Below are positions 37,502 to 62,217 of a DNA stretch of 64,000 nucleotides, piece by piece. Position 1 is the first letter of the stretch, and the number at the start of each line of letters is the position of its first letter. The position numbers and the translations under genes are program-made. Source of the stretch: Gaetbulibacter sp. S0825 (GTDB lineage: Bacteria; Bacteroidota; Bacteroidia; Flavobacteriales; Flavobacteriaceae); NCBI RefSeq assembly GCF_011777505.1, contig NZ_JAATJT010000001.1, positions 62,001 to 126,000 of the forward strand, given 5' to 3'. A model generated the notes under the pieces. That model made no database searches. It had not been told where the DNA came from and saw only the letters and a list, made by a program, of their open reading frames with translations.

Positions 37502-37583
37502 GCTCAAGTGGCGGAATTGGTAGACGCGCTGGATTCAAAATCCAGTTTCTTCGGAAGTGTGGGTTCGATTCCCACCTTGAGTA
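37502..37583 (+). tRNA. tRNA-Leu (CAA)
   Basis: A class II tRNA. The acceptor arm GCTCAAG pairs with CTTGAGT (one G-U), and the D-arm is TGGCGGAATTGGTAGACGCG. The anticodon stem CTGGA/TCCAG encloses loop TTCAAAA, so the anticodon is CAA. A variable arm follows (TTTCTTCGGAAG region), then T-loop GGTTCGATTCC and discriminator A. The 3' CCA is not fully encoded (CC then TA). A terminator hairpin follows directly. Confidence 0.95.
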
Positions 37584-57189: not shown

Positions 57190-58254
57190 ATGACCAAACT
57201 TAAAACACAATCATTACATAAGCGTGAAAGCGAATTAGCCAATAGCAATAGGCAACTAGAAATCCTTTCAAATGGGATTTTTAAAACTGGTGAATTACCA
57301 AAATTTAAAGATAAAATTGCTGAAATTGGTCATTTTCCGTTAAGACCTAAAAAGCTTGAAATTCTTCAAATTAATGTTGGCTATATGTGTAATCAGGTTT
57401 GTGAACATTGCCATGTTGATGCTGGTCCAGATAGAAAAGAAATAATGACTAAAGACACTATGAAGCAATGCTTGGAGGTCATTAAAAATACTGGAGCTCA
57501 TACTCTAGATTTAACTGGCGGTGCTCCAGAAATGAATCCGAATTTTAGGTGGTTTGTTGAGGAAGCCTCAAAAGCTGGCATCAAAGATTTTATTGTTCGT
57601 TCTAACTTAACCATTATTAGAGCTAATAAAAAGTATTATGATTTACCCGAATTTTTCAAAAAACATAATGTACATGTTATAAGCTCAATGCCGCATTGGA
57701 CTAGAGGAAAAACAGACAAACAACGTGGTGAAGGTGTTTTTGATCAATCCATTAAAGCACTACAAGATTTAAATGCCATTGGTTACGGTATGCCAAATAG
57801 TGACTTAAAACTGGATTTGGTTTATAATCCATCAGGTGCTTTTTTACCAAGTGACCAAGCGTCTATGGAAAAGGATTTTAAGAAAGCCTTATTAGAAGAT
57901 TTTAATATTCAATTTCATAATTTGTTTGCAATTACTAACCTACCTATTTCGAGGTTTTTAGATTATTTAATTGCTTCTGAAAATTATGAAGACTACATGT
58001 ATGCTTTAGTTGAAGCTTACAATCCAGCAGCTGTTGCCAACGTAATGTGTACAAACACGATTTCAGTAAGTTGGGATGGTTGGTTGTACGATTGCGATTT
58101 TAATCAAATGTTAGATTTAAAAGTGGCTAGTAAAGTAAAACACATAAGTGATTATAACGAAAACTTACTCAACGACAGAGACATTGTAATCTCTCAACAT
58201 TGTTATGGTTGTACTGCTGGAGCAGGAAGCAGTTGTCAAGGTTCTGTAGCTTAA
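57190..58254 (+). CDS. arsS: Arsenosugar biosynthesis radical SAM protein
   Basis: A 354-residue radical SAM enzyme. The cluster motif is MCNQVCEHCHVDAGP (C67, C71, C74), and the C-terminal Cys-rich tail contains CTNTISVSWDGWLYDCDF and HCYGCTAGAGSSCQ, as in ArsS. ArsS moves the 5'-deoxyadenosyl group of SAM onto dimethylarsenite, giving the precursor of arsenosugars. It lies between the peroxidase-like gene and a TIGR04282-type glycosyltransferase gene, spaced by 11 and 3 bases. Confidence 0.95.
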   Translation: MTKLKTQSLHKRESELANSNRQLEILSNGIFKTGELPKFKDKIAEIGHFPLRPKKLEILQINVGYMCNQVCEHCHVDAGPDRKEIMTKDTMKQCLEVIKNTGAHTLDLTGGAPEMNPNFRWFVEEASKAGIKDFIVRSNLTIIRANKKYYDLPEFFKKHNVHVISSMPHWTRGKTDKQRGEGVFDQSIKALQDLNAIGYGMPNSDLKLDLVYNPSGAFLPSDQASMEKDFKKALLEDFNIQFHNLFAITNLPISRFLDYLIASENYEDYMYALVEAYNPAAVANVMCTNTISVSWDGWLYDCDFNQMLDLKVASKVKHISDYNENLLNDRDIVISQHCYGCTAGAGSSCQGSVA

Positions 58255-58257
58255 AAT

Positions 58258-58860
58258 ATGTCAAAAACACTACTCATCATCTTTGTTAAGAATATTAAAC
58301 TTGGAAAGGTCAAGACACGATTGGCCAAAACAGTTGGTAATGAAAATGCTTTTAAAGTTTACAAAGCCTTAGTTAAGGTTACTGAAAAAGCAACCTCAAA
58401 AATAAATGTAGATAAACGCATCTATTTTTCTGATAATATCGTTGACGAAAAATGGCCAAACGATTATAAAACTATTCAAAAAGGAACCGATTTAGGTGAA
58501 CGAATGAGCAATGCTTTTCAAGATGGATTTGATGATGGTTATGAAAAAATTGCCCTTATAGGGTCTGATTTGCCAAATATTTCAACCAAAATCATTCAAG
58601 ACGGATTTAATGAATTACAAAACAATGATGTTGTGTTTGGCCCAGCGGAAGATGGAGGTTATTATCTAATTGGAATGTCCAAATTTCACAACTGTATTTT
58701 TGAAAATAAAGCGTGGAGTACTTCAGTTTTATTAGAAGAAACTTTAGCAGAGTTAAAACAGAAAAAAATTGAGGTATCACTCATTGAAACCTTAAATGAT
58801 ATTGATACTTTTGAAGATTTACAGGAGTATCCAAAATTTTTAAAACTCATTTCTATATGA
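58258..58860 (+). CDS. Arsenosugar glycosyltransferase, TIGR04282/DUF2064 type
   Basis: A 200-residue nucleotide-sugar-transferase-fold protein of the DUF2064/TIGR04282 group. Recognised from FVKNIKLGKVKTRLAKTVG, IALIGSDLPNIS and FGPAEDGGYYLIGMS. It is thought to add or transfer a sugar in arsenosugar assembly; this is a family association, not a tested reaction. It overlaps the purine nucleoside phosphorylase start by four bases, so translation is coupled. Confidence 0.9.
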   Translation: MSKTLLIIFVKNIKLGKVKTRLAKTVGNENAFKVYKALVKVTEKATSKINVDKRIYFSDNIVDEKWPNDYKTIQKGTDLGERMSNAFQDGFDDGYEKIALIGSDLPNISTKIIQDGFNELQNNDVVFGPAEDGGYYLIGMSKFHNCIFENKAWSTSVLLEETLAELKQKKIEVSLIETLNDIDTFEDLQEYPKFLKLISI

Positions 58861-59669
58861 CTAAGCAAATAGAAAAAACAACTGAATATTTAATAGAAAA
58901 AGGATTTGATAAGCCAGAAATAGGCATTGTTCTTGGAACAGGTTTAGGGCAACTTCTTGATGAGATTGGCATTATTAAAGAAGTAAGTTATAATCACATT
59001 CCATATTTTCCAACTGCCACAGTCGAGTTTCATAAAGGAAAACTTATTTATGGAATGTTAGAAGGTAAAAAAGTGATTGTTATGCAAGGTCGCTTTCATG
59101 TATACGAAGGCTATTCACTTCAAGATGTAACTTATCCAGTTCGTATTATGGAGAAATTAGGAATCCACACCTTATTAGTCTCTAATGCTTCTGGAGCAAT
59201 TAATTTAAATTTTAAAAAAGGAGAATTAATGCTAATTGACGACCACATTAATTTACAAGGGAGTTCACCTTTGGCCTTTAAAGACGTTTCGCAACTTGGA
59301 GAGCGATTTGCTGATATGAGTGCCCCTTATGATTTAGAAATCAATTCTAAAATTGAAAAAATTGCTAAAGAGAATAATATTAAACTTCACAAAGGAGTTT
59401 ATGCGAGTGTTGTTGGGCCTCAACTTGAAACAAGAGCAGAATATAGAATGCTAAAAATAATTGGTGCTGATGCTGTAGGCATGAGTACAGTTCCTGAAAT
59501 AATTGTAGCCAATCATTTAAAATTAAAAGCTGCAGCTGTGTCAGTTTTAACAGATGAATGCGACCCAGATAATCTAAAACCAGTAAATATTGAAGAAATC
59601 ATTGCCATGGCATATAAAGCGGAACCAGAAATGATTACTTTATTTAAAGAACTAATTAAGACCTTATAA
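58857..59669 (+). CDS. Purine nucleoside phosphorylase of the arsenosugar cluster
   Basis: A 270-residue trimeric-type PNP. Motifs: IGIVLGTGLGQLLDEIG, VMQGRFHVYEGYS, VGPQLETRAEYRMLKIIGAD. In this operon it probably removes adenine from dimethylarsinoyl-deoxyadenosine, leaving arseno-ribose-1-phosphate for later glycosylation. A general purine salvage role is the alternative. It is two bases before arsM, with the TIGR04282 gene overlapped upstream. Confidence 0.93.
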   Translation: MTKQIEKTTEYLIEKGFDKPEIGIVLGTGLGQLLDEIGIIKEVSYNHIPYFPTATVEFHKGKLIYGMLEGKKVIVMQGRFHVYEGYSLQDVTYPVRIMEKLGIHTLLVSNASGAINLNFKKGELMLIDDHINLQGSSPLAFKDVSQLGERFADMSAPYDLEINSKIEKIAKENNIKLHKGVYASVVGPQLETRAEYRMLKIIGADAVGMSTVPEIIVANHLKLKAAAVSVLTDECDPDNLKPVNIEEIIAMAYKAEPEMITLFKELIKTL

Positions 59670-59671
59670 TT

Positions 59672-60643
59672 ATGAGCAATTACCTAGAAACTACCCACGA
59701 CGTATATAAAGAAGCCGCATTAACTCCAGATGTTGGTTTATGCTGTACAACAAACCCTATTTGGGAATTACCTGGTTTAAAAATCCCTAGAATCATGCAA
59801 GAAATGAATTATGGTTGTGGCTCTACAGTTCATGTTCGCGATTTAACCAACAATCCCAAGATGCTCTATGTTGGTGTTGGTGGAGGTATGGAGTTATTAC
59901 AGTTCTCATATTTTAATCGCCAAAAAGGAGGTGTGATTGGCATTGATGTCGTTGACGAAATGTTAGAAGCTTCACGAAAGAACTTTGTAGAAGCTGAAGC
60001 CTTAAATCCTTGGTTTAAGAGTGACTTTGTAGAACTAAAAAAAGGAGATGCGATGCATCTTCCAGTTGAAGACAACAGCATCGATGTGGCTGCGCAGAAT
60101 TGCTTGTTTAATATTTTTAAAGAAGATGATTTAAAAAAAGCCATTGCTGAAATGTATCGCGTGCTTAAACCACATGGCCGTTTAGTTATGAGTGACCCAA
60201 CCTGTGAGCAACCAATGAATGATGATTTAAGAAATGACGATAGATTACGTGCTTTATGTTTAAGTGGAAGTTTACCAATTGCTGAGTATGTAAAAATGCT
60301 AACTGATGCAGGTTTTGGAACAATTGAAATTCGCGCCAGAAAACCATATAGAATTTTAGACCCTAAACATTATGCGACTGATGAATTAATTTATATCGAA
60401 TCAATAGAAGTAGCTGCCATTAAAGACTCTATGCCAGAAGATGGTCCATGTGTGTTTACTGGAAAAGCAGCTATTTATTTTGGTGAAGAAGATTTTATTG
60501 ATGATAATGCTGGACACATCTTATTAAAAAATCAACCACTTGCTATTTGCGACAAAACAGCAGGAGCGTTAGCTTCTCTAAAAAGAGACGACATATACAT
60601 TAGTGAATCCACTTATCATTATGATGGTGGTGGTTGCTGTTAG
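59672..60643 (+). CDS. arsM: Arsenosugar-cluster arsenite methyltransferase
   Basis: A 323-residue SAM methyltransferase. The N-terminal VGLCCTTNPIW holds a Cys pair, the SAM site is LYVGVGGGMELLQFS and GVIGIDVVDEML, and DPTCEQPMNDD plus LRALCLSGSL carry further conserved cysteines that would bind As(III). The C-terminus ends GGGCC. It methylates arsenite to methyl- and dimethyl-arsenite, the ArsS substrate. It lies 2 bases after pnp. Confidence 0.93.
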   Translation: MSNYLETTHDVYKEAALTPDVGLCCTTNPIWELPGLKIPRIMQEMNYGCGSTVHVRDLTNNPKMLYVGVGGGMELLQFSYFNRQKGGVIGIDVVDEMLEASRKNFVEAEALNPWFKSDFVELKKGDAMHLPVEDNSIDVAAQNCLFNIFKEDDLKKAIAEMYRVLKPHGRLVMSDPTCEQPMNDDLRNDDRLRALCLSGSLPIAEYVKMLTDAGFGTIEIRARKPYRILDPKHYATDELIYIESIEVAAIKDSMPEDGPCVFTGKAAIYFGEEDFIDDNAGHILLKNQPLAICDKTAGALASLKRDDIYISESTYHYDGGGCC

Positions 60644-60671: not shown

Positions 60672-61439
60672 ATGAGATTATTATATCTTCTTTCTATAGT
60701 TCTATTATCTTGCTTTAATAATAAAGCCATTGCTCAAAGCTCCACCCAACAGAATATGCAATTTCATCAGGAACTATCAAAACGAACCGGTCCGATTCAT
60801 TTATTATGGGATGAGTTATTACAAAAACACGTTTCGGATGATGGAAATGTCAATTATAAATCGTTTCAGACTGAACATAAAAAATTATTAGGATACATAA
60901 AAGTCTTAGGTTTATTCCATTCCAATGATATCTTTCAAACTATTTCAAGAGAAGAAAAACTGGCGTTCTGGATTAACGCTTATAATGCACTAACAGTCGA
61001 TTTAATTATTAGAAACTATCCTGTAAAAAGCATTAAAGACATTAAAAACCCTTGGAAACAACGTTTATGGAAACCTGCTAATTTCGAGTATAATTTAGAT
61101 GAAATTGAACACGAAATTTTACGTAACATGGATGAACCTCGAATTCATTTTGCTATTGTGTGCGCGTCTTATTCTTGTCCGAAGTTACAAAACAAAGCCT
61201 TTACTTCGGAAAAGTTGGATTTGCAATTAACTAAAGCAACCAAAGAATTTTTAGCAGACACGAACCGAAATGAAATTTCAAAAAATAACATCAAGATTTC
61301 AAAAATATTCGATTGGTTTTCAAAAGACTTTACCAAAAATGGAAGCTTGATTGATTTCTTAAATCAATATTCAGAAGTCAACATTTCACCAAACGCTAAA
61401 AAGCGATACAAAGATTACAATTGGGACTTGAATGACTAA
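60672..61439 (+). CDS. DUF547 exported protein of the arsenosugar cluster
   Basis: A 255-residue DUF547 protein. A signal peptide (1-21, ending AIAQ) is followed by the DUF547 core: SREEKLAFWINAYNALTVDL near 95, IHFAIVCASYSCPKLQ near 160, and a C-terminal KKRYKDYNW. The fold is papain-like; a Cys (in ASYSCP) and upstream His could be catalytic, but no reaction is known. It overlaps the next glycosyltransferase gene by eight bases. Its export suggests a periplasmic step or modification late in the pathway. Confidence 0.9.
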   Translation: MRLLYLLSIVLLSCFNNKAIAQSSTQQNMQFHQELSKRTGPIHLLWDELLQKHVSDDGNVNYKSFQTEHKKLLGYIKVLGLFHSNDIFQTISREEKLAFWINAYNALTVDLIIRNYPVKSIKDIKNPWKQRLWKPANFEYNLDEIEHEILRNMDEPRIHFAIVCASYSCPKLQNKAFTSEKLDLQLTKATKEFLADTNRNEISKNNIKISKIFDWFSKDFTKNGSLIDFLNQYSEVNISPNAKKRYKDYNWDLND

Positions 61440-62217
61440 AATTTCAATCATTATTCCTATTCTTAATGAAGCAGAAACTATTGAAAAACTGCTTAATCGC
61501 CTAATTGAAAATTCTTCAAAGCAAAACATAGCAGAAATTATTGTTGTTGATGGCGGAAGTACTGATGCTTCGAAAGACATAGTTTTATCTTTTGTCACTT
61601 CGAGTAATTCTGTACAAAGTGAAGAATTTTATCGAGAAGTAAACCAAAAAGGCCTCGATACTTTTCCGCAAAGCGAAAATACTCGACCTGACATTCTTTT
61701 AAGAAGCTCAGAAAAAGGCAGAGCCAAACAAATGAATACAGGTTCAAACTTCGCAACAGGAAACATAATATACTTTTTGCATGCCGACTCCTTTCCTCCA
61801 AAACACTTTGACGAGTATATTATTAATGAAGTTGAAAAAGGGAATCCTGCTGGTTGTTTTAGATTGCAATTCGATCAAAACCATTGGTGGTTACGCTTAG
61901 CAAGTTGGCTTACGCAATTTCATTGGAGAGCCTGTAGAGGTGGCGACCAAAGTCAGTTTATAACTAAAGAACTTTTTGATGATATTGGTGGTTTTGATGA
62001 AAGCTATATCATTTATGAAGACAACATTTTAATTAATGAGCTTTATAAGCGCAAACAGTTTAAGGTCATTAATAAAAAGCTAATTACCTCAGCAAGACGC
62101 TACGAAAAATACGGTATTTGGAAGCTTCAATATCATTTTTGGGCTATTTATGTAAAAAAATGGTTTGGCGCTTCTGCTGAAGAATTATATAGCTATTATA
62201 AGAAGCATATTGCTTAA
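61432..62217 (+). CDS. Arsenosugar glycosyltransferase, TIGR04283 type, with repeat-derived insertion
   Basis: A 261-residue GT2-fold protein. SIIIPILNEAETIEKLLNRL, VVDGGSTDASKDI and FLHADSFPP (DxD-like) mark the family found at the end of arsenosugar clusters. Between the DGGST region and GRAKQMNTGSNFATGN, where relatives have a short strand, there are about 35 extra residues (about 53-88) encoded by repeat elements at 61593-61693. The frame is kept, and the rest of the protein looks complete. It closes the operon. Confidence 0.88.
   Translation: MTKISIIIPILNEAETIEKLLNRLIENSSKQNIAEIIVVDGGSTDASKDIVLSFVTSSNSVQSEEFYREVNQKGLDTFPQSENTRPDILLRSSEKGRAKQMNTGSNFATGNIIYFLHADSFPPKHFDEYIINEVEKGNPAGCFRLQFDQNHWWLRLASWLTQFHWRACRGGDQSQFITKELFDDIGGFDESYIIYEDNILINELYKRKQFKVINKKLITSARRYEKYGIWKLQYHFWAIYVKKWFGASAEELYSYYKKHIA
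61593..61693 (+). repeat. Tandem repeat-element insertion inside a glycosyltransferase gene
   Basis: Two adjacent elements. The first (61593-61640) starts TGTCACTTCGAGTAATTCTG and ends ATCGAGAAGT, with imperfect inverted arms ACTTC..GAG and CTC..GAAGT. The second (61653-61693) starts CCTCGATACTTTTCCGC and ends TACTCGACCTGACA. Both resemble short dispersed elements of flavobacterial genomes, by memory. They are translated in frame. Confidence 0.55.

Follow-up and report, generated by a model that had tools for sequence, protein, structure and literature searches.

A glycosyltransferase (GT) gene in an arsenosugar cluster of the marine flavobacterium Gaetbulibacter sp. S0825 carries additional palindromic DNA inside its reading frame, which raises the question of what this DNA is, how it came to lie there and what it does to the enzyme. 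We refer to the whole stretch of 64,000 nucleotides that was analyzed as the window, and the features discussed are collected in Table 1. The GT product scores 219.2 bits against the TIGR04283 model and passes the curated threshold (cut-off 182). We consider it very probable that the insert represents a protein-coding palindromic element. A repeat that is dispersed and lies mostly between genes would have entered the GT gene and would now be read as a flexible protein loop.

Table 1 Features of the window that bear on the insert (positions count from the first nucleotide of the window)
Feature	Position	Strand	Details
Upstream arsenosugar cluster context	57190..60643	+	ArsS (TIGR04167), TIGR04282 glycosyltransferase, purine-nucleoside phosphorylase, AsSugarArsM
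TIGR04283 arsenosugar biosynthesis glycosyltransferase (GT) gene	61432..62217	+	261 aa, GT-A fold, frame intact
Class A palindromic repeat element	61593..61693	+	101 nt; covariance model 93.6 bits, E 1.2e-18 (itself among the seven model rows)
Left outer arm, TGTC at its start	61593..61609	+	inverted-repeat pairing
Inner hairpin 1	61607..61627	+	predicted fold
Inner hairpin 2 (TATCGAG ... CTCGATA)	61630..61660	+	predicted fold
Inner hairpin 3	61662..61679	+	predicted fold
Right outer arm, GACA at its end	61677..61693	+	inverted-repeat pairing

A palindromic element within the glycosyltransferase frame

A sequence-only reading of the window had claimed extra in-frame repeat DNA with inverted-repeat arms in this gene, and both parts of the claim are confirmed. 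A single palindromic element occupies the place, starting with TGTCACTTCGAGT and ending with ACTCGACCTGACA, and its outer arms of 17 nt each have a complementarity of 82%. The best single-stranded DNA fold consists of an outer stem and three hairpins (z = -3.43), and none of 200 dinucleotide shuffles folds as well. Where that reading counted two repeat elements we find one, which can also be viewed as a pair of inverted, TGTC-headed hairpin units; these units are the two elements of that reading. At Rfam gathering score, a search of the window and eight loci left the element unmatched, the sole match being a tRNA at 37502-37583.

In the GT frame the element runs from the last base of F54 to the first base of I88, with V55-D87 whole, and it is placed between helix 2 and strand 3 of the TIGR04283 enzyme (the alpha2-to-beta3 connection). 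The linker, counted from the start of the DGGS motif to the KGRAKQM motif, is 55 aa long, compared with 32 aa or less in 42 relatives, many of which have 24-25 aa; the net gain is about 30 residues and not the roughly 35 proposed earlier. The description as an in-frame insertion of 101 bases is correct in that the frame is kept, but 101 is not divisible by three. What keeps the frame is the net difference of about 90-93 nt relative to linkers of 24-25 aa, which is divisible by three.

Class A repeats are dispersed in the genome and the genus

Based on a covariance model search, repeats of this family, here named class A, are found at 10 distinct sites in the 3.155-Mb genome, seven of which are the rows used to build the model and were first found by DNA similarity and pattern. 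These seven copies align to a common four-helix layout, and 10 of the 31 predicted pairs show changes on both sides. Class A sites are present in all six genomes of the genus that were searched, the dispersed copies being 57-143 nt long. We examined 58 sites across the six genomes, counting those of the own genome and excluding the GT orthologues of three congeners (G001, G003, G005). An ORF of 100 aa or more encloses just one of them, the window GT copy; four other sites fall in ORFs of 73-94 aa, which we take to be chance. At least seven of the ten own-genome sites (the GT and six others) have a counterpart at the equivalent position in a congener. The family is therefore old and mostly stable in the genus. 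Class A copies are also clustered, with several lying within a few kb of each other in partly matching regions (G000:C5:82172-84529, which holds L038 and L039, in the own genome; G001:C1:1754107-1769082; G003:C19:252870-264457).

That repeat DNA was inserted, as had been proposed, is supported by this dispersal in the own genome and in congeners and by the many orthologues that lack the element. We also looked for relatives with the same residues in the absence of repeat similarity, the case named earlier as contrary to insertion, and saw none: the relatives with the same insert residues (G001, L110-L113, L115, L118, L122 and L155, where L110 is Pontimicrobium aquaticum) carry the repeat DNA as well. 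With the element present in G001 and further assemblies, an assembly artefact is unlikely.

Several repeat classes occupy the same linker in related genes

The linker was compared across 97 related GT genes, comprising 17 of 30 loci (seven duplicates and the distant L030-L035 were left out) and the best 80 of 137 named relatives. Linkers are 32 aa or shorter in 42 genes and 33-76 aa in 55, and the frame is open from the DGGS to the KGRA motif in every gene. Motifs of five repeat classes (A-E), which like their mismatch limits were chosen after the linkers had been seen, occur in 31 of the 55 linkers of at least 33 aa and in none of the 42 shorter ones. No motif was found outside the linkers in any of the 97 ORFs, over the remaining 61,560 nt scanned. 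Class A is the family of the window element and class B consists of units of TGTCnnnTCGAGCGnAGTCGAG; the motifs of classes C, D and E are ATCCTGAATCAAGTTCAGGAT, CTTCGACAAGCTCAGTGTGACA and ACCTGTCAGGTTTTnAAAACCTGACAGGT, respectively.

The class present differs among near relatives. The window gene and that of G001 carry class A, whereas L114 and L117, from the same small group, carry class B, and a single Winogradskyella clade includes A, A+C, A+C+E and B+E linkers. In some genes the classes are nested or one has half replaced another, as in Winogradskyella pacifica and W. marina (A+C+E) and W. eximia (B+E). The GT of P. aquaticum has class A together with a nested unit, that of W. thalassocola has class A, and a Lacinutrix GT is free of an insert. 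A rapidly built maximum-likelihood tree that omits the linker requires at least 13 changes between presence and absence, with 24 unrecognised long linkers set aside, and 23 changes for all linker states; many branches are weak and both figures are rough. Three sister pairs of GT class A copies are 94-96% identical, and across genera the GT copies are often no nearer to one another than to a dispersed copy, which bears on the idea of a single ancestral insertion. The pattern is consistent with five repeat classes that would have been gained, nested, half-replaced or lost at this hotspot across the Flavobacteriaceae. Two genomes labelled Winogradskyella psychrotolerans also differ from each other at this linker, with A+C in RS-3 (L118) and B+E in D3R19 (L130).

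A long linker could instead be a native, lineage-specific loop that is palindromic by chance. The 24 of 55 long-linker genes without a recognised repeat speak for this, four of them (L013, L014, L015, L153) having linkers of 55-56 aa, and a long loop at this place can exist without a visible repeat. For the window copy, however, we reject a native loop as very unlikely, since its DNA matches dispersed intergenic copies, its fold surpasses every shuffle, and unrelated repeat classes sit at the same place in relatives. Based on a class A peptide profile (seven training rows), four of the 24 unrecognised long linkers (L145, L150, L136, L142) score better than all 50 of their own shuffles. The four linkers of 55-56 aa do no better than shuffles, and we do not claim them as decayed class A copies.

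Reading frame, selection and predicted structure

Class A is present in 19 of the GT linkers, and near-complete copies could be cut from ten. All ten have a length of 2 modulo 3 (101-146 nt) and are open in one common forward frame, although they are related by descent and such counts overstate their independence. No forward frame is open in 36 of 57 dispersed copies, and the GT frame is open in nine. Based on these patterns, selection most likely acts on the frame of the element within the GT gene. Outside the linker, dN/dS is 0.066-0.182 in nine pairs of GT genes, which indicates purifying selection.

An AlphaFold model of the GT from a 24-row alignment (pLDDT 76.8) has a GT-A core and an unstructured insert, which is predicted to lie between a helix at residues 47-52 and a strand at 87-92, with pLDDT below 50 for residues 61-81. 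By ten-residue blocks, pLDDT averages 90-95 over residues 1-50 and 91-140, and the C-terminal third is weak (47-90). The nearest solved folds are GT-A enzymes, for example the fucosyltransferase WrtF (Z 22.5, rmsd 2.3, 174 residues aligned). In the GT-A fold, alpha-to-beta connections are at the edge away from the nucleotide site, which sits at the opposite ends of the strands. As judged from the model, the insert should thus be away from the active site. The proposal that it lies near the sugar-binding loop and may change or abolish activity finds no support in the alpha2-to-beta3 position, the low pLDDT of the insert or the core dN/dS.

That the insertion inactivated the enzyme is highly implausible. 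The size of the insert would favor inactivation and nothing else does, whereas the frames intact from DGGS to KGRA in all 97 genes, the constraint on the core and the predicted position in an alpha-to-beta loop all argue against it. More probably, the insert is tolerated rather than harmful, with the loop translated and the enzyme active. The element would persist in this gene as a copy that is open in the GT frame, with a net length that is a multiple of three, in a surface connection between helix 2 and strand 3 that tolerates extra residues. The linker would be a hotspot because of this tolerance. The case illustrates how intergenic repeats may turn into protein, and the many natural pairs with and without an element should make it possible to measure what a translated repeat does to an enzyme. 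It also cautions against assuming that a loop of this kind in a flavobacterial protein is an evolved feature.

Slow divergence of the in-gene elements

Four sister pairs share the same element (the window gene and L007 of G001, L111 and L112, L115 and L118, L114 and L117). At silent sites, divergence of the element is far below that of the core (pS 0.074 compared with 0.410; Fisher 1.6e-11), and at replacement sites the two are similar (pN 0.054 and 0.050). Silent and replacement sites of the element alike diverge at about a fifth of the rate seen at neighboring silent sites. Since pS and pN of the element are alike low, the protein code is not what holds its DNA. In several sister pairs the low divergence reaches into the codons adjoining the element. 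Short recombination tracts, a constraint at the DNA level and copying between species are all possible causes.

These rates are what would be expected if the insert were kept as useful, as a domesticated element with a tuning role for enzyme, mRNA or expression, given that something holds the DNA constant. We nevertheless consider domestication improbable. The element is lost, replaced or absent in close relatives, and the extension of low divergence into the flanking codons would be explained by short recombination tracts. For orthologous intergenic class A copies, conservation is not clearly higher than in the flanking DNA (mean 0.85 compared with 0.81, 15 pairs).

Dispersal of classes B and E, and class B in housekeeping genes

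Genome-wide scans covered classes A, B and E; classes C and D were seen only in GT and leucyl-tRNA synthetase (LeuS) genes. Class E is present in eight of the 16 genomes searched, with no control matches in any genome. The GT copies of L129 and L189 are among the 36 copies listed. Of 17 distinct other copies that we examined, one lies within an ORF of 90 aa and none within a longer one. Class B was found with a strict pattern at 24 places in 10 of 16 genomes, and with at most one mismatch in 15 of 16 genomes of a second, partly overlapping set, again with no control matches in either search. Half of the strict matches (12 of 24) fall in ORFs of 200 aa or more, among them the GT of L177; in L215 and L224, class B lies near the 5' end of the ORF and may precede the start. 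Among 42 class B sites in three Hanstruepera genomes, 24 are enclosed by a stop-to-stop ORF that is 120 aa or longer and extends 20 aa or more beyond the site in both directions. In the own genome, allowing two mismatches, there are 12 matches at 11 sites and no control matches, and ORFs of 100 aa or more enclose five of these sites. Among the classes, B is the main one that we found inside genes, and class A is almost only intergenic. We dropped the idea that class B is stop-free in all six frames, which is true of 8 of 82 distinct 30-nt units and of 109 of 1640 shuffled ones.

The class B hosts that score above family-model cut-offs include LeuS (three cases), a HisA-type histidine biosynthesis protein, TilS, one E1-type and two E2-type 2-oxoacid dehydrogenase proteins, HemW, MetH, FGAM synthase, diphosphomevalonate decarboxylase and RecJ, with naming by family models covering part of the Hanstruepera ORFs. 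A 2-hydroxyacid dehydrogenase and further E1- and E2-type proteins fall below any equivalog cut-off. No model names the host in L216 and L278, and in L279 and L291 the model covers another part of the ORF. The five hosts in the own genome are a 3-hydroxyacyl-CoA dehydrogenase, IcmF, MnmC2, an E2-type protein (below cut-off) and one protein without a family match.

In 17 genomes (L322-L338) the LeuS frame ranges from 948 to 1176 aa and has two recurrent insertion places, with classes B, C and D. At the place after ASVTFxV, class B is present in six genomes. Between VVSND and GVYP the genomes carry B+C, B, D, an unrecognised insert or nothing.

Recurrent places of this kind could reflect a true target site, with the elements or their enzyme recognizing the DNA of the gene, and not selection sparing certain insertions. 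Five classes at one place in the GT, two common places in LeuS, and one common class B place each in the diphosphomevalonate decarboxylase and 2-hydroxyacid dehydrogenase genes of Hanstruepera species would fit such recognition. Unrelated classes are unlikely to have one target, however, and the insertion junctions in the GT are not identical (the window class A follows ATAGTTTTATCTTT, the class B of G002 follows ATAG). By eye, the host loops are alike in linker position and have no obvious motif. A true target site is thus unlikely in our view, and we infer that the hotspot is due to tolerance, not to a choice of target.

Comparison with known palindromic elements

Protein-coding palindromes are best known from Rickettsia, the usual reason offered being reduced genomes and weak selection. 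Here, a Rickettsia-like habit is found in marine hosts, within an enzyme that purifying selection strongly constrains, and one loop is the meeting place of several repeat classes. Class A behaves like the Rickettsia palindromic elements (RPE) and like CGTC-tagged REPs, and fails tested features of both.

By analogy, RPE are the closest known behavior. They are dispersed palindromes of 105-146 or about 150 bp that lie in frame inside unrelated conserved protein genes (PMC2229807, PMC10969869). A 2007 review describes a guanylate kinase that carries an RPE, is translated, and is active with a changed affinity (PMC2229807), and a 2024 review holds the same process in other prokaryotes to be conceivable (PMC10969869). 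Compared with the description of RPE, class A is likewise a dispersed palindrome, of 101 nt and with 10 own-genome sites, and the repeats likewise lie in frame in conserved protein genes (class A in the GT; class B in LeuS, HemW, MetH and others). In contrast to RPE, the hosts are marine Flavobacteriaceae, from a different phylum, the division of labor is between an almost only intergenic class A and a shorter class B mainly in genes, and several classes meet at one place.

For CGTC-tagged REPs, the accessible text of Di Nocera and others (2013) gives TGTC among the tag variants and Bacteroidetes among five phyla, reports REPs inside ORFs in several species, and describes a single case, recB of two Xanthomonas, with different REPs at about one site; it names no flavobacterial host gene (PMC3733652). 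Class A resembles these REPs in having TGTC at both ends, inverted, and in being built of hairpin units and inverted dimers. By eye, it departs from the published description, as far as accessible, in having AC and not AT after the head and in having no CCA tail. Its inner hairpins are 18-31 nt, as opposed to a stem of 8-9 bp and a loop of 4-5 nt in the REPs.

As with the coding MITEs ERIC and Correia, in the part of the review that treats them (PMC2229807), these are non-autonomous inverted-repeat elements that lie in ORFs as fusions; no target duplication was seen here by eye against diverged linkers, and no link to a transposase was found. RepRanger gives REP counts in two Flavobacterium genomes, and its accessible text does not treat coding REPs (PMC12306157). 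In the accessible open-access literature, including that on DUF559 with palindromes and on arsenosugar glycosyltransferases, we found no report of such elements in Flavobacteriaceae. Elements of this kind are already known. What appears new are their sequences here and their hosts, how many classes meet in one loop, and the presence of DUF559 domains in frame, described below.

Mobility and DUF559 domains

The elements would arrive by some mobility mechanism. A Y1 transposase, or REP-associated tyrosine transposase (RAYT), was considered as the mover and rejected, the own genome having no match to PF01797, which also sets class A apart from RAYT-mobilised REPs. Across 13 genomes, nine have PF01797 matches, and a convincing flanking repeat is absent save for one class E pair (L243). 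G001 and G003 have one match each, with a class A motif only before the match, at 408 and 1192 nt. No mobilising enzyme for the elements was found by the PF01797 search of the 13 genomes. The inverted ends are present, and by eye no target-site duplication is seen relative to empty linkers, which are themselves too diverged for certainty. This class E pair lies around a weak Y1 match in a 516-aa ORF (L243, G111:C22:60992-61321); one half-motif precedes the match start by 82 nt and the other follows it by about 500 nt.

A different lead comes from DUF559, which we take to be a nuclease fold. The own genome has no DUF559 match. In two other genomes, DUF559 domains of about 110 aa are in frame in LeuS (L337 and L340 in G109; L334 and L353 in G113), at the place where six other genomes carry class B. 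Further in-frame domains are in MetH (L339, G115) and RecG (L347, G112; L359, G001). We treat DUF559 as a mobility partner as a lead and not as a result. Tentatively, and with more doubt than belief, we suggest that the Flavobacteriaceae may have an unreported system in which several repeat families insert in frame at the same tolerant loops of housekeeping proteins and the autonomous form would be a small DUF559 nuclease gene flanked by CCT-rich palindromes, with homing-like, nuclease-driven copying in which intein splicing and a transposase are both dispensable. As a candidate for the partner that would move the elements, the DUF559 inserts are open to test.

Stand-alone DUF559 ORFs also occur. 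The one in L345 (165 aa) has no CCT-rich hairpins. Seven others, of 122-128 aa, are near CCT-rich hairpins and are candidates for a putative autonomous palindromic element. The hairpins flank the ORF on both sides in L341, L342, L343 and L354 and on one side in L350 and L358, and the ORF of L351 has a CCT-rich hairpin on one side together with another type of hairpin.
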